64,000 nucleotides of DNA from Nocardia nova SH22a (GTDB lineage Bacteria; Actinomycetota; Actinomycetes; Mycobacteriales; Mycobacteriaceae). Under the pieces are notes generated by a model, which was not told the origin of the DNA, searched no databases, and saw nothing but the letters and a program-made list of their open reading frames with translations. A program made the position numbers and the translations under genes. Below, one piece after another: positions 17,217-34,949 of the stretch (position 1 is the first letter of the stretch; each line of letters begins with the position of its first letter). The stretch spans positions 5,456,001 to 5,520,000 of the forward strand of contig NZ_CP006850.1 of assembly GCF_000523235.1 (NCBI RefSeq), in the 5' to 3' direction.

Positions 17217-17232
17217 ATGTAAGTCTTGACAT
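17217..17232. promoter_or_regulatory. PadR box ATGT-N8-ACAT (site C) before the P450 operon
   Basis: The sequence ATGTAAGTCTTGACAT fits ATGT-N8-ACAT. Its reverse complement ATGTCAAGACTTACAT differs from the site at 34934 by one base, and the match continues into the flanking GTTG. It overlaps the -35 hexamer TTGACA of the P450 promoter, so bound PadR would block RNA polymerase. Confidence 0.7.
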
Positions 17233-17255
17233 GACAGTGGTGACGGTCACATACT
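17226..17255 (+). promoter_or_regulatory. P450-operon promoter with spacer palindrome
   Basis: TTGACA (17226-17231) and CATACT (17250-17255) are separated by 18 bases. The spacer ends in GTGACGGTCAC (17240-17250), an almost perfect palindrome with a single central base, a possible second operator. The rest of the 298-base gap 17012-17309 shows no gene. The P450 ATG is 55 bases downstream. Confidence 0.55.
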
Positions 17256-17309
17256 TGTGCCCAACCAGCGGGATGCGTCCCGTCTCGAGGTTGAAAATGA
17301 GGAGCATGT

Positions 17310-18497
17310 ATGCCTAGATCCGCTGCGAGAGCCGAAACCGACATCGATCTCTTCGCCGCCGATTTCGTCGCCGACCCCTTCCCCGCCCTCGCCCGGCTAC
17401 GTGCGCGGTCGGCGGCCGTGTACTCGACCAAATGGGATTTCTACGTGCTGACCCGCTACGAGGATGTGCGGGCGGCGGCAGCGGATTGGGAGACCTTCAC
17501 CTCGGCCGAGGGTGTCGCCCTCACACCGGAGATCAACTACGCGATCGCGGGCTCGATCCTGTCCGTGGACCCGCCCGACCACACGGTCCTGCGCAGTGTG
17601 CTCGCGGACCAGCTCGCCCCGCGCGGGCTGGGCAAGATCCGGGCGCAGATCGCGGACTACGCGAGCAGGATCGTCGCCGAGCACGTCGCCCGGCGCGAAT
17701 TCGATGCCGTCGTGGACATCTCCCGGGTCTTTCCGATCAATGTCGTCGGAGATCTGGTCGGATTACCGATCGAGGGCCGCGAGAAGCTCCAGCCCGGCGC
17801 CGACGCGACATTCGCCGGTTTCGGCCCCTTCGGCGACTATCTCATCGCGCATATGGAACAGATGGCCGCTTATCACGAATGGCTGAACACGATGGGCGAT
17901 CGCTCGAAGCTCGAGCCGGGCGGCTGGGGCGAGGCCATCATGGACGCGGTCGATGCGGGCAAGATCTCCCAGCTGGCTGCCACCCGGCTGATCAACGGCT
18001 ACCTCACCGCCGGTATGGACACGACCGTCAACGCCATCTCGGCATTGCTCCGGCTCTTCGCCGAACGCCCCGAGATCTGGTCCGCGCTCAAACAGGACAG
18101 GAAGCTCGCCGCGCCGATCTTCGAGGAGATCCTGCGATTCCATTCGCCCGTCGTGGGCTTCTGGCGCGTCGCCAAACACGATGCCACCGTCGGCGACGTC
18201 ACGATCCCGCAGGGCTCGAAGGTCATGCTCCACTGGGCGGCGGCCAATCACGATCCGGCGAAGTACCCGAATCCCGAAGTGTTCCGGACCGATCGCAATC
18301 CGCTCGACCATGTCGCCTTCGGATACGGGCCGCACGCCTGCGCCGGGCAGGGCCTCGCCCGGATGGAAGCCGTGACCTTGCTCGAGGCTCTCGCCGAACA
18401 GATCGACACGATCGAACTCGCCGGTGATCCGGTGCCGAGCATGAACCCCATCGTCCGCGGGCTGGAGTCGGTTCCCGTCCGGGTGACCGCAGCCTGA
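17310..18497 (+). CDS. Cytochrome P450 (class I, ferredoxin-dependent)
   Basis: A 395-residue soluble bacterial P450. All hallmarks are present: I-helix AGMDTT (residues 234-239), ExxR as EILR (273-276) and the haem loop FGYGPHACAGQG with Cys344. A [3Fe-4S] ferredoxin gene follows 16 bases later and a glutathione-independent formaldehyde dehydrogenase lies further down the operon. A P450 that releases formaldehyde is usually an O- or N-demethylase, so demethylation of a methoxy-aromatic is my inference. Start supported by GAGGAG before ATG. Expression is probably under PadR control through the box at 17217. Confidence 0.95.
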   Translation: MPRSAARAETDIDLFAADFVADPFPALARLRARSAAVYSTKWDFYVLTRYEDVRAAAADWETFTSAEGVALTPEINYAIAGSILSVDPPDHTVLRSVLADQLAPRGLGKIRAQIADYASRIVAEHVARREFDAVVDISRVFPINVVGDLVGLPIEGREKLQPGADATFAGFGPFGDYLIAHMEQMAAYHEWLNTMGDRSKLEPGGWGEAIMDAVDAGKISQLAATRLINGYLTAGMDTTVNAISALLRLFAERPEIWSALKQDRKLAAPIFEEILRFHSPVVGFWRVAKHDATVGDVTIPQGSKVMLHWAAANHDPAKYPNPEVFRTDRNPLDHVAFGYGPHACAGQGLARMEAVTLLEALAEQIDTIELAGDPVPSMNPIVRGLESVPVRVTAA

Positions 18498-18513
18498 GAA
18501 AGGACCGCCCGCA

Positions 18514-18705
18514 ATGCATATCGACGTGAACCGCGAGGCCTGCGAAGGCCATGGACTCTGCGCGCAGACCGCGCCGGACGTCTACGAGATCGACGACGAA
18601 GGCTACGTCCGGCTGCAGGTCACCGAGATCATCTCGGAGCTCGAGGAGCCCGCCGCGGCCGGGGCCCGCGTCTGCCCGGTCGCGGCCCTCAAGGTCGCGG
18701 ACTGA
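18514..18705 (+). CDS. [3Fe-4S] ferredoxin, P450 redox partner
   Basis: A 63-residue ferredoxin with the actinomycete P450-partner pattern CxxHxxC...CP: CEGHGLC (Cys10, Cys16) and VCPVAALKV. The His in place of the second Cys marks a [3Fe-4S] cluster. It passes electrons one at a time to the P450 encoded immediately upstream. The matching flavoprotein reductase is probably the one at 22882-24021, in the convergent operon that shares the same PadR box. Confidence 0.93.
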   Translation: MHIDVNREACEGHGLCAQTAPDVYEIDDEGYVRLQVTEIISELEEPAAAGARVCPVAALKVAD

Positions 18706-18742
18706 ACATCGACAATTCCTTCGGAGCACCAGGAGCACTTGC

Positions 18743-19045: not shown

Positions 19046-19175
19046 CCTCGGGCCGGCGATTCACCTACCGGCGCACCCGCGAAGGGGGCGGGTGCCCGCG
19101 CATTCCGTTCCGATCCTCCGGAGCGAACCCTTTCAGCAACAAGCGGCTTCGTGCTGCCTCTTCAAGGAGAAGAGA

Positions 19176-20180
19176 ATGTCCATCCGCAGATCATCCATCG
19201 TCTGCATCGCCCTGGGAGTTGTTCTCATCGTCGCCGCGATAATCGTCAGATTCGTTGTGGTGCCCAGTGTTTCGAAGCTGCCGACATCACTCGACATCAC
19301 CAATGTCTTCACGGGCACGGGCACCCTTCTCAACGCCGAGGCCGCCAAGGCCGGTGATATGCGCAACGCCGTCGCCACGGACCTTCCGGTCGAGATCATT
19401 CGACACGACTACGTGACGGATTCACACGGCGACACCGCGATCCTGCACGACGATCTCACTGTCAACGCCCCGCACGTGAGCCTGCCGAGCAACCACACCT
19501 ACGCGGTCGACAGGAAGACGATGGCGGAGTCGACCGATTCCGGAGCCGCACAAGTCGAACCCCACAAAGGGCTGATCGTGGGGCTGCCGATCGATCCGGA
19601 TCCGAACGGCGAATACAACTTGTACGACTTCGCGACACAGTCCGCTTATCCCATGCACAAGCAGGATTCGGCGACGCGTGCCGGTCGCGATGTTCTCGAC
19701 TACGCCGTGTCGGCGCAGGGCCCGCTGAAGGACAAGGCGGTGCTGGACGTCCTTCCCCCGGTCCTTCCCAAGGCGCAGGTCGCGCAGATGGCCGCGTTCC
19801 TGCCACCGGCATCCGGCACCGCGGTCACCGACGCTCTCGCGCCGCTTCCTGATCTGGTCCCGATCAGCTACACCGCCGACTCCGATATCCGATTGGCTAT
19901 CGACTCCGAACTCGGCACACCGCTCGACGGAAGCCTGAAAATACAGGTCATCGCCAATATCGGCAGTCCGGGACAGACCGTACCGCTGATGCCGATGATG
20001 GCGCTGGACACGAAGCTCGACAAGAAGTCGGCCGACACCGCAGCCGACACTGTGTCCTCGACAGCTACCAAGCTGAGCCTCGTCAAGATCTGGATCCCGT
20101 TGGCGCTCTTGATCCTCGGGCTGGTCGCCCTCGCCTGGGGCATCATCCGGCGCAAGCCTTCGACGCCCGCGCGACCGTAG
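19176..20180 (+). CDS. DUF3068 / porin PorA-family membrane protein
   Basis: A 334-residue envelope protein. An N-terminal transmembrane anchor (IVCIALGVVLIVAAIIVRFVVVPS, shown in part) is followed by a long extracytoplasmic beta-rich region and a C-terminal helix (IPLALLILGLVALAWGII) before a basic tail. This layout is that of DUF3068, annotated as the porin PorA family of mycolate actinomycetes. AGGAGA precedes the ATG. Its presence in a catabolic operon suggests a role in substrate entry across the mycolate outer layer; that is inference. Confidence 0.82.
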   Translation: MSIRRSSIVCIALGVVLIVAAIIVRFVVVPSVSKLPTSLDITNVFTGTGTLLNAEAAKAGDMRNAVATDLPVEIIRHDYVTDSHGDTAILHDDLTVNAPHVSLPSNHTYAVDRKTMAESTDSGAAQVEPHKGLIVGLPIDPDPNGEYNLYDFATQSAYPMHKQDSATRAGRDVLDYAVSAQGPLKDKAVLDVLPPVLPKAQVAQMAAFLPPASGTAVTDALAPLPDLVPISYTADSDIRLAIDSELGTPLDGSLKIQVIANIGSPGQTVPLMPMMALDTKLDKKSADTAADTVSSTATKLSLVKIWIPLALLILGLVALAWGIIRRKPSTPARP

Positions 20181-20271: not shown

Positions 20272-21495
20272 ATGCCCTCGAACAGAGCCGTCGCCTACCA
20301 GGGGCCCGGGATCGTCGAAGTGATCGACACGGATTTCCCCACGTTCGAACTGAAGGACGGTCCCGGCGTCAACCCGGCCAATGTCGGTCGCAAGCTCCCG
20401 CACGGCGTCATCGTGCGCACCGTCGCCACCAATATCTGTGGGTCCGATCAGCACATGGTCCGGGGCAGGACGACTGCCCCGGCCGGGCTGATCCTGGGAC
20501 ACGAGATCACCGGGGAGGTCATCGAAGTCGGCCCCGACGTCGAGTTCGTCAAGGTCGGCGATCTCGTGTCGGTGCCGTTCAATATCGCCTGCGGCAGGTG
20601 CGTCAACTGCAAGATCGGCCAGACGGGGATCTGCCTCAATGTCAATCCCGACCGTCCCGGCAGCGCTTACGGATACGTCGACATGGGCGGCTGGGTCGGC
20701 GGGCAGGCCGAGTACGTCGTCGTGCCCTACGCCGACTGGAATCTGCTGGTGTTCCCGGACAAGGACCGGGCGATGGAGAAGATCCTCGATCTGGCGCTGC
20801 TCTCCGATATCTTCCCGACCGGCTTCCACGGGGCCGTCACCGCCGGCGTCGGGGTCGGCTCGACCGTATATGTCGCCGGAGCCGGACCTGTCGGACTCGC
20901 GGCGGCGGTCAGCGCCCAATTGCTGGGCGCCGCGGTGGTCATCGTCGGCGACCTCAACGAACACAGACTCGCGCAGGCCCGGAGCTTCGGCGCCGAGACG
21001 ATCGATGTCGGCGCCGGTGCGATCGAGGACCAGCTCGAACAACTTCTCGGCGTCCGCGAGGTCGACGCGGCGATCGATGCCGTCGGCTTCGAGGCACGCG
21101 GCCACGGACACGGCGCACGAGCCGCGGAAGCCCCTGCGACCGTGCTGAATTCGCTCATGGACATCACCGCCGCCGGAGGCCGGATCGGAATCCCCGGGCT
21201 GTACGTCACCGGCGATCCCGGCGCCACCGACGAAGCCGCGAAGCACGGCGCGCTGTCGATCGGCTTCGGCACCGGGTGGGCCAAATCGCTGTCGTTCGCG
21301 ACCGGGCAGTGTCCGGTCATGCGCTATCACCGCCAGCTCGCTCGGGCGATCCTCCACGACCGGGTGCAGATCGCCAAGGCGGTCAATGCCACGCCGATCA
21401 GCCTGGACGACGCACCGCGCGGCTATGCCGAATTCGACGCGGGCGCCGCCACGAAGTACATCCTGGACCCGAACGGTTATCTCCGGTCGACCTGA
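20272..21495 (+). CDS. fdhA: Glutathione-independent formaldehyde dehydrogenase (zinc MDR)
   Basis: A 407-residue zinc-dependent medium-chain dehydrogenase. Catalytic zinc ligands are visible in NICGSDQHM (Cys56) and LILGHEITGEV; the structural zinc lobe is CGRCVNCKIGQTGIC. The NAD motif is VYVAGAGPVGLAAAV. The long insert with GYVDMGGWVGGQAEYVVVPYADWNLL and the FGTGWAKSLSFATGQCPVMRYHR region match Pseudomonas-type FdhA, which oxidises formaldehyde to formate without glutathione. In an operon with a P450 it most likely removes formaldehyde made by demethylation. AAAAGGAG precedes the ATG. Confidence 0.92.
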   Translation: MPSNRAVAYQGPGIVEVIDTDFPTFELKDGPGVNPANVGRKLPHGVIVRTVATNICGSDQHMVRGRTTAPAGLILGHEITGEVIEVGPDVEFVKVGDLVSVPFNIACGRCVNCKIGQTGICLNVNPDRPGSAYGYVDMGGWVGGQAEYVVVPYADWNLLVFPDKDRAMEKILDLALLSDIFPTGFHGAVTAGVGVGSTVYVAGAGPVGLAAAVSAQLLGAAVVIVGDLNEHRLAQARSFGAETIDVGAGAIEDQLEQLLGVREVDAAIDAVGFEARGHGHGARAAEAPATVLNSLMDITAAGGRIGIPGLYVTGDPGATDEAAKHGALSIGFGTGWAKSLSFATGQCPVMRYHRQLARAILHDRVQIAKAVNATPISLDDAPRGYAEFDAGAATKYILDPNGYLRST

Positions 21496-21603: not shown

Positions 21604-22821
21604 GTGAATGCATGCGGCATATCGGAAAATGCGCGAATTCCGCTCTGGACAGAGGAATTCGCCGCGGATCCGCACCGGTTCTACGCGAGCATGCGTCGCG
21701 ATCACGGCTCGCTGGTGCCCGTGGAGCTGGCGCCGGGTGTTCCGGCGACGCTGGTCGTCGACTACCACGTCGCCCTCCGCATCCTGCACGATCCGGTCCA
21801 CTTCCCCGCCGATCCCAGCCTCTGGGAGGCAGGGGTCGCATCCGAGTGCCCGATCCTGCCCATGATGAGGGCGAGGCCCAATGCCATCCGGACCACCGGG
21901 GAAGTCCACACGCGATATCGGGCGGCGGTGTCGGATGCGCTCGGCCGCATCGATCACTACCGCCTGAGTGTGATCGTCGAAGACGCCGCGAAAGCCGCGA
22001 TCGATACCTTCCGCGCCGACGTATCCTGTGATGTGTTGTCGCAGTTCGCCTTTCCGGTCACGTTGGGCACCCTCAACGCGCTGCTGGGGTGCTCGCCCGA
22101 CATCAGCTCGCGCGCGGCGGCCGGAATAGCCGCGGTATTCGACATCGATGACGGCGCCACCGAGGGCAACCGGGTGCTCGAGGACGCCTTGTACGATCTC
22201 GTCGCGCTGAAGCGCTCGACCCCCTCCGACGATGTCACCAGCTGGCTCACCCAGCATCCGGCCGCGCTCAGCGACGAGGAAATCATGCACCAGTTGGTGC
22301 TTCTCTATGCCGCCGGAATGTCGCCGCCGCTCAACCTCATCGGCAACACGCTGTTGCTGATGCTGACCGATTCGCGATTCGGAGGCGGAGTGCTCGCGGG
22401 CAGTCTGGCGCTGCGAGACGCGCTCGACGAAGTGCTCTACGACGACCCGCCGCTGGCCAATTATTGCCTGACCTACCCGCCCCGGCCGGTGTTCATCGAA
22501 GGCGTCTGGCTGCCGGAGAACCAGCCGGTCATGATCAGCATGGCGGGCTGCAACACCGATCCACTGATCCGGACCGCCGACAGTGGATTGCCCGGCAACC
22601 GTGCTCACCTCGCGTTCGGCGCGGGCCCGCACGCTTGCCCCGCTCGGTCGATCGGCTACCTGATCGCCCAGATCGCCATAGATCTGCTGCTCGACGCGCT
22701 CCCGGATATGGAGCTGGCGGTCGCGGGCTCGCAGTTGCGCTGGCAGCCCGGCCCGTTTCATCGTGCGCTGTCCGCGCTGCCGGTCAACCTTCGGGGCAGC
22801 GGCCCGAACAGCACCCCGTAG
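21604..22821 (+). CDS. Cytochrome P450 lacking the ExxR motif (CYP157-like)
   Basis: A 405-residue P450-like protein. The haem loop FGAGPHACPARS with Cys345 is intact. The K-helix position that should read ExxR reads E276-V-L-Y279 (LDEVLYDDPPLANY), so the normally invariant Arg is missing. The I-helix reads AAGMSPP (236-242), without the acid-Thr pair used for O2 activation. Streptomyces CYP157 proteins also lack ExxR, and the N-terminal layout here is similar. Start GTG 21604 has GGAGA upstream. It may be a non-classical P450, a structural partner of the first P450, or have another haem role. Confidence 0.85.
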   Translation: MNACGISENARIPLWTEEFAADPHRFYASMRRDHGSLVPVELAPGVPATLVVDYHVALRILHDPVHFPADPSLWEAGVASECPILPMMRARPNAIRTTGEVHTRYRAAVSDALGRIDHYRLSVIVEDAAKAAIDTFRADVSCDVLSQFAFPVTLGTLNALLGCSPDISSRAAAGIAAVFDIDDGATEGNRVLEDALYDLVALKRSTPSDDVTSWLTQHPAALSDEEIMHQLVLLYAAGMSPPLNLIGNTLLLMLTDSRFGGGVLAGSLALRDALDEVLYDDPPLANYCLTYPPRPVFIEGVWLPENQPVMISMAGCNTDPLIRTADSGLPGNRAHLAFGAGPHACPARSIGYLIAQIAIDLLLDALPDMELAVAGSQLRWQPGPFHRALSALPVNLRGSGPNSTP

Positions 22822-22881: not shown

Positions 22882-24021
22882 TCAACGGTCGGTCCGGGCC
22901 ATGGCCTTCAGGCGGGCGGCCGGGACGCGGTAGTTGATCGCGACGACGGCGGTGGTCGTCTCGTTCTCGGTCCAGCGCAGCAGAACCTTTCCGCTGTCGA
23001 TGTCTCCGTCGATGATCTCGGGCACACCGATCAGCGGTGGCTGTCCGGCGATCTTGATGTCGAGACCGAATTGCTCGGTCCAGAAGTAGTGGTCGGGAAC
23101 GTAAGCCGGGGCGGCGGGGTTCAGCAAGGTCGTCGCGGCCGCTCGTCCCTGCACTACGGCATTGGTCCAGTGCGGGGTTCGCCGGAAGACTCCTGGAGCC
23201 GCCTGTCGGGCGACGACGTCGCCCGCGGCGACGATGCCCGGTGCGACTCGGCATCGGCCGTCGACGACGACGCCGTTGGCAACCGTCACCCCGGATCCGT
23301 GCAACCATTCCGTGTTCGGGAGGTCACCTACGGCGGATACGACGAGATCCGCCGACAGTGACCGTCCGTCGCTCAGGCGCACGCGGGAGACAGGTTCGCC
23401 CTCCAGTGCGACACCGCCCTCGGAAACAACGACGCGAATGCCCGCTTCCTCGGCGACTCGGCCGATATGGGCGGCGAGCCACGGGCCCAGCACTTGCCGG
23501 AGGGGCTCGGCCATGTCCACGACGGTGACGTCCAGGCCGTGACGGATGAGCGTGGAAGCCACCTCCATCCCGAGAAAACTGCCGCCGACGACGATCGCGG
23601 TGGCGGCCCGTGGCAGCCGCTCGGCGATGGCGGCCGCGTCCCGGAGAGTGCGAACGACCAGTTCTCCTTGCTGCCCGGGGCGTGCGAGTCGCCGCGCTCG
23701 GGCGCCGGTGGCGACGACCAGCCCGTCGTATCGGATCGTGGCCCCGTCGGCGAGCAGCACCTCCCGCGTCTCGGTGTGCAGACCGACGGCTCGACTGCCG
23801 AGCCGGACATCGACATCGCCGGGCAACGAGGGCAGGATGGCGCTCTCCGGTGTCTGTGTGCCCGCAAGTACGCCCTTCGACAACGGAACACGAGAGTAGG
23901 GGTCGGCGCTCTCCTCGCCGATGAGGGTCAGCGTTCCCGTCCATCCGGCGGTCCTGAGGGATGCGGCCGCGGTCACGCCCGCGATCGAGGCCCCGACGAC
24001 GACGATGCGATCGAGTGTCAC
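22882..24021 (-). CDS. FAD/NAD(P)-dependent ferredoxin reductase
   Basis: A 379-residue pyridine-nucleotide-disulfide-type reductase as used with P450 or Rieske systems. FAD motif VVVGASIAGVTAAASLR at the N-terminus, NAD motif IVVGGSFLGMEVASTL near residue 145, the second FAD motif GIVAAGDVV, and a C-terminal reductase domain starting near FWTEQFGLDIKI. It moves electrons from NAD(P)H to ferredoxin. GTG 24021 is chosen because it overlaps the stop of the preceding small gene by four bases (GTGA). It is the last gene of the minus-strand hydroxylase operon and convergent with the P450 operon it probably serves. Confidence 0.9.
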   Translation of the reverse strand: MTLDRIVVVGASIAGVTAAASLRTAGWTGTLTLIGEESADPYSRVPLSKGVLAGTQTPESAILPSLPGDVDVRLGSRAVGLHTETREVLLADGATIRYDGLVVATGARARRLARPGQQGELVVRTLRDAAAIAERLPRAATAIVVGGSFLGMEVASTLIRHGLDVTVVDMAEPLRQVLGPWLAAHIGRVAEEAGIRVVVSEGGVALEGEPVSRVRLSDGRSLSADLVVSAVGDLPNTEWLHGSGVTVANGVVVDGRCRVAPGIVAAGDVVARQAAPGVFRRTPHWTNAVVQGRAAATTLLNPAAPAYVPDHYFWTEQFGLDIKIAGQPPLIGVPEIIDGDIDSGKVLLRWTENETTTAVVAINYRVPAARLKAMARTDR

Positions 24022-24200
24022 GCCGCCACCGCCCGCCACGCCTCGGTTACCCCAGCCGCTGCTGCGCCTGTGAGGTCGGTGTGATTCTCTCCGGCCCAAG
24101 GCATTTCGCAGCGGCGCGGGCGACATTCGGCGGCGCGAACGGTATCGGTACAGCGCCCGGTCCGATCGCGGCACGCCGGGCGAATGGTTGCGGTGAGCAT
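24018..24200 (-). CDS. Cys-rich 60-residue protein, unknown
   Basis: A short gene between a FAD hydroxylase and the ferredoxin reductase. AAAGGAG (24213-24207) stands six bases before ATG 24200 and its TGA overlaps the reductase GTG by four bases, so translation signals are strong on both ends. The protein has four Cys in two pairs (CRDRTGRC and CRPRRC) in an Arg-rich N-terminal half, then MPWAGENHTDL and a helical tail GVTEAWRAVAA. The Cys spacing could hold a metal or cluster, but it does not fit the ferredoxin patterns I know. No family recognised. Confidence 0.6.
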   Translation of the reverse strand: MLTATIRPACRDRTGRCTDTVRAAECRPRRCEMPWAGENHTDLTGAAAAGVTEAWRAVAA

Positions 24201-24225: not shown

Positions 24226-25362
24226 CTAGGCTTCGGTGGCCAGTGCGGCGAAGGCGCGGCCCTGGACCTCGTGCTCCTCGGCGTATCGGTGCTCGAACTC
24301 GAGATCGACCATCGCCTGTGCGGCATCGACGACCAAGCGTGCCCGCTCCAGGCGCCGCTGCCAGAAGTGTGTGAGCGACTCTTCAAGGGTGGCGCCGATC
24401 TCGAGTTCCTCGGCCAGGACCACGGCATCCTCGACGGCGAGCGCGGCGCCGCTGACCATGTGCGGCGCGCAGGTGTGCGCCGCGTCTCCGATCAGAACGA
24501 CGCGACCGCGATGCCAGGGGCCGTCCACCAGCAACCCCAGGACCGCGCGGCGCACAATGCGTTCCGAGTCGACTATCCCGTCGCGGATCGCCGCCATCTC
24601 CCCTTCGAGTGGCGCCAGCAGCTCCCGCATTCCCGCCGCCAGGTCGGCGTCCGGACGCGGCGTCCGTTCGGGCGTGATCTGGGTCGTGAAGATGTACGCG
24701 TCGCGATCGGATATGGGGATGATGCCGGAGGAGTGCCGCGCCGCGTTGAAGGTCGTCAGCCGGTCGGCCCACACCGGGCGGGGCACCGTCGTGCGCCAGA
24801 CGGCTTGTCCGAGAAAGGCGGGGGTATCGGCGATTCCGATTGCCGCGCGCGTCGCCGAGTTCACTCCGTCGGCGGCGACGACGAGGTCGGCTCGCTTCCG
24901 TGTGCCGTCCGCGAGAACAGCGGTGACACTGTCGGCACTCTCCTCGATGCCCGTCACCTGCGCTCCCAGGTTCAGTGTCGCACCGGCGGTTTCGGCTGCT
25001 TCCCGGAGCGCGCGCGACAGGGCCGGTCGGCCGATGCCGACCATGATCGGCTCCCCCGGCCCGAGCAGCGAGGGCGGCAGCACCTCGTGCAGGAGGGTGC
25101 GGCGGACATCGCAGTTGTTGATTCCGTCGATTCCGAATCCCGCCTCCGCACACCGGCGTTCGAGCCCGATCGAACGCAGAGCGCGCAGCGCCGGGCCGGT
25201 GAGGCTCAATCCCCAGCCGACCGCGGGCCACTCGCGCTGCCGTTCCAGGACCTCGACGTCGTGTCCACGGCCGCGCAGGGCGACGGCCGCGGTCAGCCCG
25301 GCGATACCGCCGCCGATGATCAGAACGCGTCGTACCGGCAGGGGGCTTCTCCGCTCAGACAA
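24226..25362 (-). CDS. FAD-dependent monooxygenase (PHBH-fold), third hydroxylase of operon
   Basis: A roughly 378-residue class A flavin hydroxylase. FAD motif RVLIIGGGIAGLTAAVALR, DG motif LVVAADGVNSATRAAIG and second FAD motif VVLIGDAAHTCAPHMVSGAALAVEDAVVL are all present. The start is uncertain: TTG 25362, overlapping the upstream stop by eight bases, is the best placed, because no ATG or GTG lies just before the FAD motif. It shares the minus-strand operon with two other flavin hydroxylases and two extradiol dioxygenases, so it presumably acts on a ring or side chain of the same substrate. Confidence 0.85.
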   Translation of the reverse strand: MSERRSPLPVRRVLIIGGGIAGLTAAVALRGRGHDVEVLERQREWPAVGWGLSLTGPALRALRSIGLERRCAEAGFGIDGINNCDVRRTLLHEVLPPSLLGPGEPIMVGIGRPALSRALREAAETAGATLNLGAQVTGIEESADSVTAVLADGTRKRADLVVAADGVNSATRAAIGIADTPAFLGQAVWRTTVPRPVWADRLTTFNAARHSSGIIPISDRDAYIFTTQITPERTPRPDADLAAGMRELLAPLEGEMAAIRDGIVDSERIVRRAVLGLLVDGPWHRGRVVLIGDAAHTCAPHMVSGAALAVEDAVVLAEELEIGATLEESLTHFWQRRLERARLVVDAAQAMVDLEFEHRYAEEHEVQGRAFAALATEA

Positions 25363-27783: not shown

Positions 27784-27808
27784 GGGTCTTCCTTTCTGGA
27801 ACAGACGG

Positions 27809-28621
27809 CTATGCGCCGAGACCGAGCTGGGCGCGGGCGGCAGCGACATCGGCGATCGTCAGCTCGAGCCCGGTCGCGAGGCCCGCGGCCCGGCGAACCA
27901 ATTGGTCGTTGCTGTCGGCGAGTTCGCCGCGCCGCAGATGCAGCGTGTCTTCCATGCCCGCCCGGGCGTTGCCCCCGAGAGCGAGGGCGATCGCCGTGAG
28001 CCGCAGGTTGTGCCTGCCGATGGCGATGATCTGCCAGATCGCGTCCTCCGGCAGCCGCCGCACCACGGTCATGAGGTTCTCGGGCGTCGCGGCCATTCCG
28101 CCGCGCACACCCATCACGATGCTGAATTGCAGGTGGCCTTCGAGCAGTCCCTCGTCCCGGAAGCGCAGGCACTCGTCCAGGTGGCCGGTGTCGTAGATCT
28201 CCAACTCGGGCTTGATACCGAGATCGCGCATGCGGGCGGCGAGTCGGCGCACGTCGGCCGGTGGATTACGGAACTCGCCTCCCGCGAACGTCATCGAGCA
28301 CGGATTGAGCGTCGCCATCGCCGGTTTCAGCTCGACCAGGCGCGCGCGCTCCTCGAACGGCACCGACAATCCCACTCCGGTGGAGAGTTGAACGAGAATC
28401 GGGCATCGGTCGCCGATGAGCCCGACGGCGCGCTCGGCGATCCGAAGGTCAGCGGTCGGCCGCTGCTGTTCGTCCCTGAGGTGGATGTGCGCGACCGCGG
28501 CACCCGCAGCGTAGGCCGCCGCGACCGAATCGGCGATCTCCTCCGGCGTGGTCGGCAGGGCGGGATTGTCGCTCTTCGTGGCGATCGGGCCGGTGGGAGC
28601 GACCGTGAGGACGACGGACAT
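27809..28621 (-). CDS. BKACE-family (DUF849) beta-keto acid cleavage enzyme
   Basis: A 270-residue member of the 3-keto-5-aminohexanoate cleavage enzyme family. Signature parts are LTVAPTGP at the start, AHIHLRDE with the two zinc-binding His, and RAGMEDTL with the third ligand Glu. Family members split a beta-keto acid with acetyl-CoA into acetoacetate and a new CoA ester. It occurs between two extradiol dioxygenase genes, so it may process a beta-keto acid made downstream of ring cleavage, an unusual partner for meta-cleavage. ATG 28621 has GAGG six bases upstream; an alternative ATG at 28633 overlaps the previous stop as ATGA. Confidence 0.9.
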   Translation of the reverse strand: MSVVLTVAPTGPIATKSDNPALPTTPEEIADSVAAAYAAGAAVAHIHLRDEQQRPTADLRIAERAVGLIGDRCPILVQLSTGVGLSVPFEERARLVELKPAMATLNPCSMTFAGGEFRNPPADVRRLAARMRDLGIKPELEIYDTGHLDECLRFRDEGLLEGHLQFSIVMGVRGGMAATPENLMTVVRRLPEDAIWQIIAIGRHNLRLTAIALALGGNARAGMEDTLHLRRGELADSNDQLVRRAAGLATGLELTIADVAAARAQLGLGA

Positions 28622-28629: not shown

Positions 28630-29649
28630 TCATCCCTGCCCGTGGGTTCCGGCGGGATCCAGCAGAACCTGCTTGATTTCGTCCGAAATCCCTTCCTCGG
28701 TACCGGTTCCGCCCTCGGCGTACGGGAACGACTCCTGCATGGACTGCGGCATGACCGAGTTCCGGTAGATGTTCGCCGAACCGGTCGACGGCGTCCAGAC
28801 CCGCGGCTCCCAGTCGGGTACGTAGTTGCGGTATCCGCCCGAGTTCAGCTCGATCCGCAGCCCGCTCGGTTCGCGCACATAGAGGAAGTTCTGCTCGCCG
28901 ACGCCGTGGATCGAGGGGCCGTACTCGATGGGCGTGCCGTATTCCATGAGCACATCCGCGGCGATCAGCAGCTCCTCGTGGGTGTCGAGCCAGAAGGCGA
29001 CGTGGTTGACCCGTCCGGGGCGGTCGGAGGTGTCGATGACGATTCCGAGGTCGTGCGACTTCTCGTTGGTCGTGAGCACCGAGAAGATGGTGATCGGCGC
29101 CTCGTCGAGGTCGGTGTAGGCCATGATCCGGAAGCCGAGCACCTCGGCGTACCAGGTGGCCATGCCGCGCACGTCGCGCGAGGCCACGGTGACGTGGTCG
29201 AAGAACCGCGGCGCGCCGGCCTTGTCGCTGCGCCGTTCCGGTCGATCGACCCAGCTCGACGCCAGCTCGGCGGGGGCCCGGTACTGCTCGATGTCCCAGA
29301 CCAGACGGGTCCCGTGACCGTACGGGCCGACGAACTCGTAGGAACGACCGTGCCCCGGCCCGCCCCCGTTCCACGTCCCGGTGATCCCGGCGGCCTCCAC
29401 GCTGGCGACCGCCTCCTCGAGCGCCTCCGGAGAGTTCGTCCGCCACGCCATCCACGCCAGACCCGCCTCGTCGCCCGGGGTCACGATCAGGCTGTACCGG
29501 TGGTAGTCACCCCACGCTCGCAAGTAGACCTTGCCGTCCACTTCGTCGACGACGCGCAAGCCGAAGCGCTCGGTGTAGAACTTCACCGAGGCCGCGACGT
29601 CGGGGCTCGTGATTTCGAGGTGGGCGATCTGGGAAAGATATTCGGACAC
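28630..29649 (-). CDS. Catechol 2,3-dioxygenase-type extradiol dioxygenase
   Basis: A 339-residue two-module extradiol dioxygenase. Metal ligands in the C-terminal module are His in FFDHVTVASRD, His in GRVNHVAFWLDT and Glu in SGLRIELNSGGYRNY, the last motif being typical of catechol 2,3-dioxygenases. GTG 29649 is chosen because it gives the usual start SEYLSQIAHLEI and has AAAGG ten bases upstream; ATG 29667 is possible. It is longer than average by a C-terminal tail of about 40 residues. Second gene of the operon, after a salicylate-hydroxylase-like FAD enzyme that could supply its catechol. Confidence 0.92.
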   Translation of the reverse strand: MSEYLSQIAHLEITSPDVAASVKFYTERFGLRVVDEVDGKVYLRAWGDYHRYSLIVTPGDEAGLAWMAWRTNSPEALEEAVASVEAAGITGTWNGGGPGHGRSYEFVGPYGHGTRLVWDIEQYRAPAELASSWVDRPERRSDKAGAPRFFDHVTVASRDVRGMATWYAEVLGFRIMAYTDLDEAPITIFSVLTTNEKSHDLGIVIDTSDRPGRVNHVAFWLDTHEELLIAADVLMEYGTPIEYGPSIHGVGEQNFLYVREPSGLRIELNSGGYRNYVPDWEPRVWTPSTGSANIYRNSVMPQSMQESFPYAEGGTGTEEGISDEIKQVLLDPAGTHGQG

Positions 29650-29745
29650 GGGCGTTGGGCCTTTCATTGATGGAAATCGAGAGCTGCGTCGGCGTCTCGG
29701 GGTGTCGGTTCGGACGCGGAGGACGTGGGCGCACCGCCGGGCATG

Positions 29746-31044
29746 TCAGGTCATCTCCGGGTCGGTGGCGGTGCTCGGGATCCGCGCCCGGAACGCGTCT
29801 TCGGTGTGCTGGATGACATCGACCTGCTTCATGATTTCGCCCGGTGTCCCGTCGGCGGCCACCTTCTGCAGGAACGGAGTGTGGTCGAGGACGAACTCGC
29901 GCAGTGGATGCAGCACCCGTGGCGCGTGATGGAACATCTGGCTGAGGATGTAGGCCTGCTGCGACTGCCGGGCGGTGTGCTTTCTGCGCGGTTCTTCGAA
30001 GGCGGTCAGCGCCGCCTCGACGGCCCGTTGATCCTTCAGATCGACCCCGGCGAGCCGGCGTCCGAGGAAATAGGCATCCTCGATCGACATGCCCGCGCCG
30101 TAACCGGCGTAGGGCGAGGTGGGGTGAGCCGCGTCGCCGATGATGGTCGCTCGGCCTTTCGACCAGCGCGGCAAGGGCTTTCGGTCGCGCAGCACCCAGC
30201 GGTGCATATGGGCCGGGTCGGTGAGTGCGACGAGTTCGGGCATGGGCGAGGGGAAGTCCGCCGCCAGCCGTGTCGCGGTCGCGTGGTAGTCCTCGTCGAA
30301 AGGCTCGTCCGCCGAGTGCGCCTCGATCACCCACCATTCGAACCCGTCGCGCCCCAGGCTGCGGATCGAGGTCCAGCTCGCCTGCACCGTGCGCGACCAG
30401 CTGATCATGCAGACTCCGCGCGCCGCGTCGATCGGTTCGACGGTGTATCCGCCGAAGATGTGCAGATTGTGCTCGCGCGGCGGCGTTTCTCCCCACAGGG
30501 TCCGCCGGACCAACGAGTTGATCCCATCGGCGCCGACCAGGACGTCGAAGTCGCGGGCCGTTCCGTCCGACAGCTGCACGTGCACACCGTCGATGTCCTG
30601 TGTGAAAGCGACGACGCCGAGGTTGGCTTCGATGACCCCCTCGGGCAGCGCGGCACGCATGCGGCTGTAGAGATCCGGTCGCAACAGACCGATGAAGTCA
30701 CCGCCGTATTCGGCCTGCAGCTCGTCGGAGATGTGGATCACCGCTCGCCGCCGCCCCGACGACGAGCCGAAGATCGTCTGGCAGGGCGCGCCGAGATCGT
30801 CGATGTCGACACCGAGCAACCCGAGCGCCTTCACCGGCGGCGGCCAGAGGTTGATGATGTTGCCGCGCGGCTCGGCCGCCGGATACCTCTCCAGAATCGT
30901 CACGTCGTGCCCCGCCTGGCCCAGCGACAATGCCGCTGCCATGCCCGCGGGTCCGGCCCCGACGATCCCGACCCGGCCACGAGGGCCGGCTGCTCCGGTG
31001 ACCACTTCATCTCCTTCGCCAGCGGCGTCGGCGAGCCGTGCCAT
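29746..31044 (-). CDS. FAD-dependent monooxygenase (salicylate hydroxylase-like), operon leader
   Basis: A 432-residue PHBH-fold hydroxylase: VGIVGAGPAGMAAALSLGQAG with ERYP following, DVLVGADGINSLVRRTLWG, and ATIIGDAAHPTSPYAGYGAGMSIEDAYFLGRRL. About 20 extra residues precede the FAD motif. AGGAGG lies four bases before ATG 31044, among the strongest ribosome sites in the window. It is the first gene after the divergent PadR-box promoter, ahead of dioxygenase, BKACE, second dioxygenase, two hydroxylases, small Cys protein and ferredoxin reductase. It probably decarboxylates-hydroxylates or hydroxylates an aromatic acid. Confidence 0.92.
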   Translation of the reverse strand: MARLADAAGEGDEVVTGAAGPRGRVGIVGAGPAGMAAALSLGQAGHDVTILERYPAAEPRGNIINLWPPPVKALGLLGVDIDDLGAPCQTIFGSSSGRRRAVIHISDELQAEYGGDFIGLLRPDLYSRMRAALPEGVIEANLGVVAFTQDIDGVHVQLSDGTARDFDVLVGADGINSLVRRTLWGETPPREHNLHIFGGYTVEPIDAARGVCMISWSRTVQASWTSIRSLGRDGFEWWVIEAHSADEPFDEDYHATATRLAADFPSPMPELVALTDPAHMHRWVLRDRKPLPRWSKGRATIIGDAAHPTSPYAGYGAGMSIEDAYFLGRRLAGVDLKDQRAVEAALTAFEEPRRKHTARQSQQAYILSQMFHHAPRVLHPLREFVLDHTPFLQKVAADGTPGEIMKQVDVIQHTEDAFRARIPSTATDPEMT

Positions 31045-31110: not shown

Positions 31111-31126
31111 ATGTCAAGATTGACAT
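31111..31126. promoter_or_regulatory. PadR box ATGT-N8-ACAT (site A) in divergent promoter
   Basis: ATGTCAAGATTGACAT is a near-perfect palindrome (seven-base arms ATGTCAA/TTGACAT with a two-base centre) matching the PadR operator form. It contains TTGACA on both strands, giving a -35 element in each direction: on the minus strand 17 bases before GACACT, on the plus strand 17 bases before GCATGT. One bound dimer could therefore shut both the hydroxylase operon (minus) and the FAH-cupin operon (plus). Confidence 0.75.
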
Positions 31127-31178
31127 GTTGATATAAACAAGGGCATGTTGTCCCTGGCTCGATGAGAGGGAGGCCACC

Positions 31179-32090
31179 GTGAAACTTGCTTCGTTCCAGA
31201 TCGACGGCGCCGACGATGTCGGCATCGTCCGGCCCGATGGGGTGATTCCGCTCCGTTCGCTGGCGCCGGACGCGCCCACCACCATGCGCGAGGCCCTCGC
31301 CTGGATCCCGGTGCACGATCCGAATCCGCTCGACCCGGACGTGCACGCCCTGCCGTTCGATTCGGTGCGGCTGTTGCCCGTCGTCCCCGACCCGGCGGCG
31401 ATCTGGTGCGCCGCTCTGACCTACCTCAGTCACGTCAGGGAGGACCCCACCAGGCCGGTACCCGACTATCCCCTCTTCTTCCTCCGGGTCCCCGCCAGCC
31501 AGATCGGGCACGGCGAACCGATGCTCGTCCCGTCGGTATCCGCGGAACTCGACTACGAGGGAGAGCTGGCGGTGGTGATCGGCCGCCGCGGCCGGGATAT
31601 CCCGATGGCGACCGCTCTCGATCACGTCGGCGGCTACACCTGCTACAACGACGGTTCGGTGCGCGACTGGCAGCGCCACACCTCGCAGATCACCATGGGT
31701 AAGAACTTCGACGCGACCGGCGGTTTCGGCCCGTGGCTCGTCACCCCGGACGAATTCGGCGATCCGGCCCGCCACCGCATCACGACACGTCTCAACGGCG
31801 AGGTCGTGCAGGACGCGAGTGTGGCGGAACTGCTGTTCCCGATCGAATACCTCATCCACTACGTCTCCACCGTCTCGACGCTCGAGGTCGGCGACGTGAT
31901 CGTCACCGGCACATCCGGAGGCGTCGGTGTGCGCCGCAACCCGCCCCTGTTCATGCGGTCCGGAGACGTCGTCGAAGTCGAGATCGACGGCATCGGCGTG
32001 CTGCGCAATCCGGTCGCCCTCGCCGCGGCGCCGCAGACCGGCGGCTTCCATGCCTTCCACCCCGAAATCACCGAGACGAGGTCCTCATGA
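31179..32090 (+). CDS. Fumarylacetoacetate hydrolase family protein
   Basis: A 303-residue FAH-family enzyme. The metal-binding core shows DYEGELAVVIGRRG (Glu ligand), the conserved GYTCYNDGSVRDWQRHT, the GKNFDATGGFGPWLVTPDE stretch, then VGDVIVTGTSGGVG and MRSGDVVEVEIDGIG. Family members hydrolyse acylpyruvates or hydrate 2-oxopent-4-enoates, usual steps after meta-cleavage. GTG 31179 has GAGGGAGG upstream. It is divergent from the hydroxylase/dioxygenase operon across the shared PadR box, consistent with a step downstream of ring opening. Confidence 0.93.
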   Translation: MKLASFQIDGADDVGIVRPDGVIPLRSLAPDAPTTMREALAWIPVHDPNPLDPDVHALPFDSVRLLPVVPDPAAIWCAALTYLSHVREDPTRPVPDYPLFFLRVPASQIGHGEPMLVPSVSAELDYEGELAVVIGRRGRDIPMATALDHVGGYTCYNDGSVRDWQRHTSQITMGKNFDATGGFGPWLVTPDEFGDPARHRITTRLNGEVVQDASVAELLFPIEYLIHYVSTVSTLEVGDVIVTGTSGGVGVRRNPPLFMRSGDVVEVEIDGIGVLRNPVALAAAPQTGGFHAFHPEITETRSS

Positions 32091-32599
32091 CCAACGAACA
32101 GCGACGCATTGTCACCGGGCACGACTCCGCCGGGCGAGCGATCTTCGTCGCCGACGGCCCCACACCGAACGTGTGGGAGGCCCCCGACGGCGGTCCCGTC
32201 TTCGAACTCTGGCAACACGCTGGTGTCCCGGACAATTCGACGGAGTTCGCCGATCCGATCCTCGGGCAGGCGAGTTTCCCGCCGCCACGGCGCGGTTCGG
32301 TGTTCCGGATCGTCGACTTCGCCCCTCGCGCGTCCGGCGACCGTATTCACATGCACCGGACGCGCTCGCTCGACTACTGCTACATCATCGAGGGCAGTAT
32401 CGTCGCGGTGCTCGACGACGAGGAGCGCGTGCTGAAGGCCGGTGACGTTCTCGTACAACGCGGTACGAACCATGGCTGGCGCAACGAGTCGGGCGCTGTC
32501 TGCCGCGTGCTCTTCGTCTTGATCGACGCCGAGCCGCTGCCCGCCCCCGCGGAGGACGCCTCCCGCGAATCGGTGCCCGGCATCGACGGTGCTACGTAG
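32087..32599 (+). CDS. Cupin-domain protein
   Basis: A 170-residue protein with one cupin barrel in its second half: HMHRTRSLDYCYIIEGSI (first motif, metal-binding His and Glu region), DDEERVLKAGDVLVQRGTNHGWRNES (second motif). Such proteins act as small dioxygenases, isomerases or sensors of pathway intermediates. Its ATG overlaps the FAH stop (ATGA), so the pair is made together. The gene ends 61 bases before the PadR start. Enzymatic role in the pathway is likely but undefined. Confidence 0.87.
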   Translation: MTNEQRRIVTGHDSAGRAIFVADGPTPNVWEAPDGGPVFELWQHAGVPDNSTEFADPILGQASFPPPRRGSVFRIVDFAPRASGDRIHMHRTRSLDYCYIIEGSIVAVLDDEERVLKAGDVLVQRGTNHGWRNESGAVCRVLFVLIDAEPLPAPAEDASRESVPGIDGAT

Positions 32600-32609
32600 T
32601 TACTCGTTG

Positions 32610-32633
32610 TGACAGACCTGTCAATACATACAT
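32610..32633. promoter_or_regulatory. PadR box (site D) and palindrome upstream of padR
   Basis: TGACAG-AC-CTGTCA (32610-32623) is a perfect six-base-arm palindrome. Overlapping it, CTGTCAATACATACAT (32618-32633) fits ATGT-N8-ACAT with one mismatch and matches site A at 13 of 18 positions when the following GT is counted. It lies 28 bases before the PadR GTG, in a place to give autoregulation. Confidence 0.55.
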
Positions 32634-32660
32634 GTCTGTTTGCATGGTACGTTCGTTCGC

Positions 32661-33293
32661 GTGTCTCTCAAGTACGCGATTTTGGGCTATCTGAGCTCCG
32701 GACCGGGATCCGGGTACGACCTCGTTCAGCAGCTCGACGGCGGCCTGGGATGGTTCTGGGCTGCCTCGCACAGCCAGATCTATCCCGAGCTGCGCCGTCT
32801 CAAGACCGCGGGTCTGATCACGGACACCGCCACGACGGTGGGCGAGAAGTTGGAGAAGCGGGTCTACTCGCTGACCGACCAAGGGGCGCACGAGTTGCGG
32901 GAGTGGACCTGCACGGAGCCGGAGTATCGCCCCAACCGCGATCCGGAACGATTGCAGCTCATCTTCTCCGACAACAACGGCGCCGATGCGATCCGACGGC
33001 ACCTCAAAGCGCACCTCGACTACTTCACCAAACGCCGCGACCGACTGGTCCGGATGCGCGACCGAATTCTCTCCGGCCAGAACGCGCGCGTTCAGGAGCG
33101 CCTTGCCACGAAGAGCGAATCGGATCGCGCGATGACACTGTTGCTGCGCGATCTCGCCTACGGCGGCGATGTGCGCCGGGCCGAACTCGAAATCGCCTGG
33201 GCGTCAGAGGCACTCGCGCGAGTCGACGCCCTGGCACAGGGGGGCGACTCGGTGACACAAGAGCAACAGGGCGCGTCCTCCGGCCTCGATTAG
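32661..33293 (+). CDS. PadR-family transcriptional regulator
   Basis: A 210-residue PadR protein: N-terminal winged helix VSLKYAILGYLSSGPGSGYDLVQQL, SQIYPELRRLKTAGLI, KRVYSLTDQGAHELREW, then the C-terminal coiled domain from about residue 90 used for dimerisation. PadR repressors release DNA when a phenolic acid appears. GTG 32661 gives the canonical start; no clear ribosome site precedes it, so the transcript may be leaderless. Four ATGT-N8-ACAT boxes in this window lie in front of the P450, hydroxylase, FAH, hydrolase and padR genes, making this the likely master repressor of the block. Confidence 0.92.
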   Translation: MSLKYAILGYLSSGPGSGYDLVQQLDGGLGWFWAASHSQIYPELRRLKTAGLITDTATTVGEKLEKRVYSLTDQGAHELREWTCTEPEYRPNRDPERLQLIFSDNNGADAIRRHLKAHLDYFTKRRDRLVRMRDRILSGQNARVQERLATKSESDRAMTLLLRDLAYGGDVRRAELEIAWASEALARVDALAQGGDSVTQEQQGASSGLD

Positions 33294-33332
33294 CCGCATC
33301 CCGGTGGCGAGGCGTGCGGTGTTCGACGAACT

Positions 33333-33380
33333 CGGCGCGCCATCGCGGTCGATGGGTTCCACGACCACGATGGCGCGCCG
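33333..33380. terminator. Strong inverted repeat between convergent padR and hydrolase genes
   Basis: CGGCGCGCCATCG (33333-33345) and CGATGGCGCGCCG (33368-33380) form a perfect 13-base stem with a 22-base loop in the 94-base gap between two convergent genes, as expected for a bidirectional terminator. Confidence 0.65.
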
Positions 33381-33387
33381 GGCACCG

Positions 33388-34542
33388 TCACAGCCGATCC
33401 GCGACCCAGTCGGCGATGTAGTTGGCGGGCACCGACTCGTTGTCGGCGCCGGCATGCGATGAACCACCTTCGGCGGAGCTGAACAGTTTCCAGTGCCGAT
33501 CGGGACTGTTGATCGCCCTCTCGTACTCTGGCGTCGCCAGATCCATCGGTATCTGGCGATCGTCCTCGCCGTGGGTGACGAGGAACGGCACCGTGATCTC
33601 TTCGACGACTCCCTCGAGGCTCATCTTCGGCGCGAAATCCATGAACTCGTCGAGACTGTCCTTGCCGAACACCCACTGCACATGGTCCCAGTAGTGCGGG
33701 ACCGGATTCTCGCCCTCGCGCAGCAGACGGCGCTTCTGCAGCTCACCCCAGTTGTAGTTGGCGCCCCACACCGCGCACAGCTTGAAACGTTTCTCGAAGG
33801 CGGCCGCCCGCGGTGCGTAGTAGCCGCCCAGCGAGATACCGCTCATACCAATACGTTTCGGGTCGACGTCACTCCTGGTCTCGAGGTAGTCCACCGCGGC
33901 GCCCGCCCAGCGCTCGGAGTCGTGGATCGCGGGGAGATCTCGTTCGCGCAGCGAAGCACCGGTACCGGGCTGGTCGACGCACAGGGTGGCGATCCCGCGC
34001 CGGGCGAGCTCCGCGGGCAGCCCGAGCCGGTACAGCATCTCCTTCATCGAGTCGAGGCCGTTGCAGAACACCATGACCGGCCAGCCGCCGTCGGGTGCGT
34101 CACCGCCCGGCGTGCAGAAGATGGCCGGGAAAGACTTTCCCTCATAAGGGATTTCGACGTACTCAGCGGGCTCACCGTTGTGCTCGATCGCCAGCTTCGA
34201 TGCCGCGACGGACTTGCGGTAGGCCTCCTGGCGCGGTTCGTAGTCGCGCCGCTGCATACGCTCGGCGACGAGGTAGTAGACCGACGCGCGGTCGTAGAGT
34301 GCTCCCGCCGACAGCGGATGATGCTGCGCCACTTCCTGTTCGGCACGCACGACGAGCGTGTCCGCGAAGTTCACCCAGGACTGGAAGAGCTTCTCGGTAC
34401 CCGCATCGTCGCCGTTCTTGGCGATTTCGGTCAGCGGCGCGCTGATCTGATCGATCTCGCCGATCTGGCCGCCGCAATTCATCGCGATGCTGACCGACAG
34501 GCTCCAGACATAATTGGTCGGAAAGTAGCGATACATGCTCAC
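33388..34542 (-). CDS. Alpha/beta hydrolase with N-terminal helical cap (DHPON hydrolase-like)
   Basis: A 384-residue hydrolase of the FrsA/DUF1100 type, resembling 2,6-dihydroxypseudooxynicotine hydrolase. An N-terminal helical region (residues 1-130) precedes the core: VMVFCNGLDSMKEM, LCVDQPGTGAS, nucleophile elbow IGMSGISLGGYYAPR, acid in LVTHGEDDRQIP and His in GGSSHAGADN. Relatives cut C-C bonds next to ketones, or esters. The start could be GTG 34542 (overlapping the small upstream gene stop) or ATG 34536. Transcription runs from the PadR-box promoter at 34912-34949, so it belongs to the same regulon as the dioxygenases and could hydrolyse a meta-cleavage product. Confidence 0.88.
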   Translation of the reverse strand: MSMYRYFPTNYVWSLSVSIAMNCGGQIGEIDQISAPLTEIAKNGDDAGTEKLFQSWVNFADTLVVRAEQEVAQHHPLSAGALYDRASVYYLVAERMQRRDYEPRQEAYRKSVAASKLAIEHNGEPAEYVEIPYEGKSFPAIFCTPGGDAPDGGWPVMVFCNGLDSMKEMLYRLGLPAELARRGIATLCVDQPGTGASLRERDLPAIHDSERWAGAAVDYLETRSDVDPKRIGMSGISLGGYYAPRAAAFEKRFKLCAVWGANYNWGELQKRRLLREGENPVPHYWDHVQWVFGKDSLDEFMDFAPKMSLEGVVEEITVPFLVTHGEDDRQIPMDLATPEYERAINSPDRHWKLFSSAEGGSSHAGADNESVPANYIADWVADRL

Positions 34543-34709
34543 CGCCCCGCTCGGTCGGCGCTACCGTCGCCGACGACGCGATCGAACAGCCGAGGGTCTG
34601 CGACGACCGTCCGCCCCACCCCCCTCGCATCGGCTGTGGAAGAGCGGTGCGCCCCGGCGATGGTCCTGCCGTTCGCGATGTCGACAGCGTGCTTGTCGAA
34701 CAGTGCCAC
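34539..34709 (-). CDS. Possible 56-residue leader-encoded protein
   Basis: GTG 34709 follows AAGGAGG at seven bases spacing, the best ribosome site in this leader, and the frame ends with a TGA overlapping the hydrolase GTG (GTGA). The product starts VALFDKHAVDIANGRTIAG and then becomes Ala/Arg/Asp-rich without a recognisable domain. It may be a small pathway protein, a coupling ORF that feeds ribosomes to the hydrolase, or the remnant of a longer gene. Confidence 0.45.
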   Translation of the reverse strand: MALFDKHAVDIANGRTIAGAHRSSTADARGVGRTVVADPRLFDRVVGDGSADRAGR

Positions 34710-34911
34710 GAAAGTGCCTCCTTGCTGGCTCGGAGAAGTCCGTTGTAGGTGTGTGCCTCGACCGGGCGAGGCGCGTGACGAGCCGATCCGCAACGGTGGA
34801 TCCACGAGCCGAGGGCCGAACGGCACCCGGGCACACCGGCGGCCTTCAGCGATCGCCGCACCGGACATACTCCGGCCCATCGCGACGAGGGGAACTGTTC
34901 CCATCGCGAGT

Positions 34912-34949
34912 ACTATCCCCGACCACAGGAATTATGTCAAGATTTACAT
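34912..34949 (-). promoter_or_regulatory. PadR box (site B) and promoter of the hydrolase unit
   Basis: ATGTCAAGATTTACAT (34934-34949) fits ATGT-N8-ACAT and differs from site A by one base. On the minus strand it holds TTGACA (first base 34940), followed after 17 bases by GATAGT (34917-34912), a good sigma-70-type promoter firing into the small ORF and the hydrolase. The stretch 34710-34911 is an untranslated leader with no other gene seen. Confidence 0.7.

Follow-up and report, generated by a model that had tools for sequence, protein, structure and literature searches.

Introduction

VanR of Corynebacterium glutamicum is a PadR-like repressor of vanABK that is inhibited in vitro by vanillate (PMC8358305); here and below, statements on published work refer to the partial texts of the cited papers. 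The operators of PadR, LadR and LmrR in Firmicutes have the form of an ATGT-N8-ACAT inverted repeat (PMC4517056, PMC3506622). One operator of lmrCD is bound by two LmrR dimers (PMC5428041), and the promoter of cdPadR1 itself carries two boxes of the inverted-repeat type (PMC5050560). We describe a 64,000-nucleotide stretch of Nocardia nova SH22a (NZ_CP006850.1, positions 5,456,001 to 5,520,000; the window), in which a padR gene lies within an aromatic catabolic gene cluster and PadR-type boxes stand at four sites, A to D. Three of these sites are tandem double boxes, and we consider it likely that an autoregulated VanR-like PadR represses one catabolic pathway through them.

On the catabolic side, the ifc isoflavone and fde flavonoid clusters of Proteobacteria bring together a FAD monooxygenase, a VOC dioxygenase and a protein resembling 2,6-dihydroxypseudooxynicotine hydrolase (PMC11069340). 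IfcA homologues are reported from Proteobacteria only, and disruption of the hydrolase-like ifc gene left daidzein degradation unaffected (PMC11069340). In PbdA, one of the CYP199A p-methoxybenzoate demethylases, the substrate carboxylate is bound by Arg84, Ser87 and Ser237 (PMC11530827).

Results and Discussion

A VanR-like regulator and its probable operator

The padR product matches PF03551 (57.2 bits on a slightly longer frame, cut-off 27) and PF10400 (25.2 bits, cut-off 22.4). Over residues 1-191 it matches the PDB chains 6lg2 and 5z7b (7e-30), probably its best solved relative, which we take to be VanR; a weaker PDB match is 1yg2, 'gene activator AphA'. As reported for VanR (PMC8358305), it would repress nearby genes for aromatic demethylation. 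Here, the candidate demethylation set is a cytochrome P450 (P450) with the formaldehyde dehydrogenase FdhA, and several promoters are covered; no Rieske-type VanA was found among the scanned cluster proteins, the rest of the genome not having been searched. The VanR operator is reported to lie downstream of the -10 element (PMC8358305), whereas here ATGT-N8-ACAT doubles lie over the -35 element. The same inverted repeat is used by PadR, LadR and LmrR of Firmicutes, but the boxes here overlap head to tail in a 14-bp register (ATGT-N8-ACATGT-N8-ACAT), an arrangement not found for those proteins in the partial texts of PMC4517056, PMC3506622, PMC5428041 and PMC5050560. Among the literature matches listed, judged by titles and abstract openings, we found no description of such a PadR regulon or of 14-bp tandem PadR boxes. 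Taken together, the evidence supports a regulon of known type (VanR) with an operator richer than the first-pass annotation of this DNA had seen, in a tandem form for which the literature searched gave no description.

A second, overlapping box at three of the sites

The window was scanned with ATGT-N8-ACAT, the known PadR operator form, at zero and at up to one mismatch. Exact boxes lie at A (17217-17232), B (31111-31126) and D (34934-34949), and site C (32618-32633) deviates by one mismatch (CTGT), as the first-pass annotation had reported. It had also placed the four sites in front of the P450 gene, the divergent hydroxylase and fumarylacetoacetate hydrolase (FAH) genes, padR and the hydrolase gene, which agrees with the gene positions in Table 1. 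With up to one mismatch allowed, the window contains 22 matches against 8.4 expected.

The annotation had treated each site as a single box. We found a second box at A (17203-17218), B (from 31125) and D (from 34948), which overlaps the exact one by two bases and thereby gives the 14-bp register. At up to two mismatches, the tandem pattern ATGT-N8-ACATGT-N8-ACAT occurs in the window at A, B and D only, against 0.05 expected, and none of 100 shuffles reached three matches. The sites are closely related in sequence: B and D differ by one base, as do D and the reverse complement of A. The one-base difference previously claimed between B and the reverse complement of C is in fact a difference at 5 of 16 positions. 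Likewise, the GTTG flank described as common to all sites is carried, as ACATGTTG, by A (reverse strand), B and D, while C reads ACATGTCTG; and TTGACA, credited to three sites, is present on one strand at all four, although at C this strand points away from padR.

Restriction of the boxes within the genome

In the genome of 8,348,532 bases, exact ATGT-N8-ACAT occurs 60 times, against 7 times for the pattern read backwards. The 17.7-kb stretch that holds the sites would be expected to contain 0.13 exact boxes, and three or more would occur with a probability of about 3e-4 if boxes were distributed uniformly, a figure for a stretch selected on account of its boxes. The 18-mer TGTCAARAYTKACATGTT is common to A, B and D and is found nowhere else in the genome at zero to two mismatches; its perfect matches at the three sites are circular, the pattern having been derived from them, whereas its absence elsewhere is not. 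Equal frequency elsewhere, which the first-pass annotation had named as refuting its regulon, is thus not what the genome shows. At three mismatches, four more places appear, namely site C, a place before a second padR gene and two others.

Zero-mismatch matches to the palindrome ATGTMARNNTTGACAT are also confined to A, B and D in the genome. One-mismatch matches exist at 1914220 and 6746116; a further one at 5568957, considered as an extra target, falls within a coding frame and was rejected. When up to two mismatches are allowed, the tandem pattern is found genome-wide at A, B and D, at the overlapping places 281517 and 281531, and at 1493397, with none for the reversed control. The places at 281517 and 281531 adjoin the start (281516) of the second padR gene, directly upstream. 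This locus (L045, 281517-281560) has degenerate boxes in the 14-bp register immediately before the gene.

Boxes in front of related padR genes

Of the non-self PadR matches compared together with their upstream DNA, the four strongest (45-62% over 189-191 residues) come from a Marmoricola metagenome-assembled genome (L005), Streptomyces sp. SID13031 (L006) and two further loci (L037 and L078). All four have an exact box 57-83 bp upstream of padR, in this order ATGTCGATATGAACAT, ATGTCAATAGTGACAT, ATGTAAGGATTGACAT and ATGTGAAGATTGACAT, the last being one base off site B. Among the weaker PadR matches (L008-L036), 3 of 29 have an exact box in the corresponding upstream stretch (L028, L031 and L035), each accompanied by a one-mismatch box 14 bp away. 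The Streptomyces locus has another box at 15240 between divergent genes, whose reverse complement runs into GTTG, and its surroundings encode a FAD monooxygenase (37%) and a cupin protein (42%) resembling those of the window.

Nine stretches (152 kb) around extradiol dioxygenase relatives (43-65%), taken from five congeners without a PadR match at E 1e-40, served as a negative control. They contain no exact box, and one match to ATGTCAANNTTGACAT at three mismatches (in L070). Four plasmid stretches with related enzymes contain one exact box (L038 at 22348), before a GntR gene. Together with the restriction of the 18-mer to A, B and D, the exact boxes before the padR genes of relatives support the earlier proposal of a PadR regulon over this block.

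Close relatives of this PadR are sparsely distributed in the genomes searched: 1 of 150 congeners (the window's own genome, E 1e-40), 1 of 38 genomes in the family of L006 (that of L006 itself), 2 of 394 in the class (own and G207, E 1e-45) and 2 of 345 in the order of G207 (G207 and G763, E 1e-42). PadR matches occur in 45 plasmid records, all below 60% identity, the best-covering one at 36%. In four congeners (L063-L070), a related catabolic set (extradiol dioxygenase 64-65%, FMO3-like 55-57%) is present without this PadR. On a Deinococcus plasmid, relatives of the extradiol dioxygenase (62%), the hydrolase (54%) and the P450 (33% over 172 residues) lie beside a MarR gene, indicating that related enzymes pair with other regulators.

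Candidate promoters and a proposed regulon

The TTGACAT arm of the boxes supplies a perfect -35 hexamer at A, B and D, accompanied by a -10 element that is plausible or weak. At A, TTGACA (-35 at 17226) is followed on the plus strand by an 18-bp spacer and CATACT, a candidate P450 promoter. At B, the plus strand has TTGACA, 18 bp and CATGTT (candidate FAH promoter), and the minus strand TTGACA, 17 bp and GACACT (candidate promoter of FMO3, the first FAD monooxygenase gene of the leftward unit). At D, the minus strand has TTGACA (-35 at 34940), 17 bp and GATAGT, a candidate hydrolase promoter. The one-sided sites A and D turn a perfect TTGACAT arm to their gene, and B, with genes on both sides, has two perfect arms.

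In the regulon that we propose, with operon limits taken from strand and spacing, a PadR dimer would repress its own gene and the units read from A, B and D. The unit from A would comprise the P450, ferredoxin, porA, fdhA and second P450-like genes. Leftward from B, FMO3 would be followed by the extradiol dioxygenase, beta-keto acid cleavage enzyme (BKACE), VOC protein, FMO2, FMO1 and ferredoxin reductase genes; rightward, the FAH and cupin genes might be read on into padR, which lies 61 bp further on the same strand. The C-C hydrolase gene would be read from D. Presumably, two PadR dimers would sit side by side on the overlapping boxes of A, B and D. Because the TTGACAT arm doubles as the -35 hexamer, PadR occupancy would exclude RNA polymerase, and at B one palindrome would cover both divergent -35 hexamers. 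Site C, 43 bp before the padR start, probably mediates autoregulation. The effector that releases PadR would probably be the substrate of the pathway or one of its early intermediates; phenolic acids are a guess.

Several observations weigh against this proposal. Site C is a single box with four mismatches to ATGTCAANNTTGACAT, and no -35/-10 pair for padR was found there under the rule used for A, B and D. The second box of each pair carries one mismatch. Reversing the 18-mer TGTCAARAYTKACATGTT as a control gives four genome matches at up to three mismatches, and ATGTMARNNTTGACAT at up to two mismatches gives 41 matches on the two strands together, where its control gives 13. In the relatives, the boxes before padR of L005, L006, L037 and L078 are not tandem in the sequences shown, the PadR of L022 (47%, residues 1-102 only) has no exact upstream box, and L011 has two one-mismatch boxes 16 rather than 14 bp apart. 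Furthermore, many PadRs closer than those compared with their DNA occur among metagenome proteins, up to 89% identical among the 120 matches listed of 169 proteins at E <=1e-30 in a protein collection.

The AraC-family protein encoded at 15986-17011 could also control the P450 unit. Its gene, with AraC_binding_2 and HTH_18 domains, is oriented like the P450 gene and ends about 300 bp upstream of it. In that case, PadR would govern padR and the adjacent units (B, C and D) only, the AraC-family protein would govern the P450 unit 14 kb away, and box A would be a remnant or a secondary site. We regard this as unlikely, since A fits the 18-mer no less well than B and D, the only other such places in 8.35 Mb. 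A is also a double box whose perfect TTGACAT arm is the candidate P450 -35 element, and the probable ferredoxin reductase that the P450 would need is encoded in the unit read from B. Still less would we expect the TTGACAT palindromes to be mainly strong -35 elements that arose by promoter duplication and resemble PadR boxes by chance. Their arms do coincide with candidate -35 hexamers; yet A and D, where a single promoter is needed, retain both ATGT/ACAT ends together with the second box 14 bp away, the form recurs before other padR genes, and the scanned stretches with related enzymes from congeners that lack this PadR contain no exact box. That explanation seems to us highly improbable.

Repression is the natural reading, because PadR bound at the -35 boxes would block polymerase. 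Activators do exist among PadR-like proteins, AphA being one, and the weaker match to 1yg2 would fit an activator or a dual regulator here, a role that we consider quite improbable given the overlap of the boxes with the candidate -35 region. The nearest solved relatives, 6lg2 and 5z7b, are presumably VanR. VanR itself is a repressor (PMC8358305).

A predicted O-demethylation and ring-cleavage pathway

The enzyme families agree with the aromatic catabolic block named in the first-pass annotation. The joint presence of a P450 and a formaldehyde dehydrogenase points to O-demethylation. The solved P450s nearest to the product of 17310-18497 are 9g9q, 2fr7 and 4dnz, of which we take 9g9q to be PbdA with its numbering shifted by 18; the haem cysteine motif and the overall similarity to the CYP199A demethylases are kept. 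Opposite the WRPPS and RS stretches of these structures, the protein has Ala, Gly and Gly, so that the Arg/Ser/Ser carboxylate-binding set (Arg84, Ser87 and Ser237 of PbdA; PMC11530827 for the residue roles) is not kept. This replacement suggests that the P450 substrate is probably not a benzoate. Most likely, the pathway would O-demethylate a non-carboxylated methoxy-aromatic compound, with FdhA removing the formaldehyde, and would then hydroxylate and open the ring.

Our best guess for the substrate is a methoxylated (iso)flavonoid-type compound, because a FAD monooxygenase, a VOC dioxygenase and a hydrolase of this kind also co-occur in the ifc cluster; the window cluster holds the same combination with its C-C hydrolase-like protein. 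It differs from ifc and fde in also having the P450, ferredoxin, FdhA, BKACE, FAH and PadR genes, and the likeness is one of gene content. That the flavonoid link has its basis in gene content, and not in a comparison with the FdeE, FdeC or IfcA sequences, counts against it.

The locus thus offers a testable regulon and an operator rule for a VanR-like PadR, a 30-bp tandem array that is found by a simple pattern and predicts targets, and it ties the regulator to an uncharacterised aromatic pathway whose P450 pocket is without the benzoate-binding residues. Once its effector is known, the regulator could serve as an inducible switch or a biosensor.

Tandem arrays in the genus

Tandem arrays also precede PadR genes in other genomes. 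The exact tandem pattern is found in 6 of 148 congeners, at six loci, three of which have triple boxes. At five of the six loci, including all triples, a padR gene starts no more than 90 bp from the array's near end. The reversed control likewise gives six single matches in 6 of the 148 congeners, so the count amounts to no enrichment, and the five PadRs beside the arrays form one similar group (58-60% to L031); both points weigh against the proposal. For these arrays, adjacency to padR is evidence and the match count is not. About four PadR groups have the 14-bp arrangement, among them the window's PadR, the L028/L045 group, L035 and the L031-like congener group.

It is conceivable, although we put it somewhat below an even chance, that PadRs of the genus use a distinct operator grammar. 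Boxes would follow one another head to tail at 14-bp intervals, sharing ACATGT where they join, in double or triple arrays that bind dimers side by side for graded or cooperative repression; at the present locus, the array would be fused to -35 elements and drive a pathway, led by the P450, for compounds of the methoxylated (iso)flavonoid type.

Three congener loci (L084, L085 and L086, each at 1501-1544) have perfect triple ATGT-N8-ACAT arrays in the 14-bp register before their PadR genes, and in L084 and L086 the divergent gene resembles a short-chain dehydrogenase by its N-terminus. The sixth locus (L088, 1501-1530) has a perfect tandem array without a PadR match, which overlaps or precedes a gene that looks TetR-like by its N-terminus.

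Genes of the cluster

Table 1. Operators and genes of the cluster, in window coordinates (FMO, FAD-dependent monooxygenase)
Feature	Position	Strand	Evidence or remark
Operator A, double PadR box	17203..17232	-	ATGT-N8-ACATGT-N8-ACGT on - strand; exact box 17217-17232
Cytochrome P450, CYP199-like, probable aromatic O-demethylase	17310..18497	+	PF00067; PDB 9g9q 'CYP199' 3.9e-87; haem motif FGYGPHACAG
Small Fe-S ferredoxin, probable P450 electron donor	18514..18705	+	PF13459, PF13370
PorA family protein	19092..20180	+	PF11271, 170.6 bits
Glutathione-independent formaldehyde dehydrogenase FdhA	20272..21495	+	TIGR02819, 714 bits (cut-off 637)
Second, divergent P450-like protein	21604..22821	+	weak family match below cut-offs; haem Cys motif FGAGPHACPA
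Probable ferredoxin reductase	22882..24174	-	Pyr_redox_2 168.5 bits; Reductase_C and HcaD-like below cut-off
FMO1, start not refined	24226..25560	-	PF01494
FMO2, start not refined	25355..27025	-	PF01494
VOC/glyoxalase-fold protein, start not refined	26905..27849	-	PF00903
BKACE, start set from matched part of longer frame	27809..28615	-	PF05853, 303.7 bits
Extradiol ring-cleavage dioxygenase, catechol 2,3-dioxygenase-like	28630..29667	-	TIGR03211 239.5 bits (below cut-off 320.2); PDB 9wgj, 3lm4
FMO3, first gene of minus-strand unit	29746..31044	-	PF01494; PDB 5eow
Operator B, double PadR box	31111..31140	+	perfect palindrome ATGTCAA-GA-TTGACAT
FAH family protein	31179..32090	+	PF01557, 224 bits
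Cupin-domain protein	32087..32599	+	PF07883 in longer version of frame; 38.6% (L039), 42.0% (L006) matches
Site C, single degenerate PadR box	32618..32633	+	43 bp before padR start
padR, VanR-like PadR family regulator, 210 aa, GTG start	32661..33293	+	PF03551, PDB 6lg2/5z7b
Alpha/beta hydrolase, nearest solved relative 2,6-dihydroxypseudooxynicotine hydrolase (C-C hydrolase)	33388..34542	-	PDB 2jbw 4.6e-20
Operator D, double PadR box	34934..34963	+	pattern scans; - strand TTGACAT arm

The second P450-like protein lacks a Pfam match and also an ExxR motif where one would be expected, and is possibly a non-classical or degenerate P450. At gathering thresholds, the window gave no Rfam family. 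The AraC-family gene (plus strand), directly upstream of operator A, lies beside an acyl-CoA dehydrogenase gene (14721-15926). At the other end of the cluster, about 390 bases (34543-34930) separate the hydrolase start from operator D; this interval, which may be a long leader or contain a gene of its own, has a 121-residue frame (34539-34904, minus strand) with a weak coding signal and no Pfam match.

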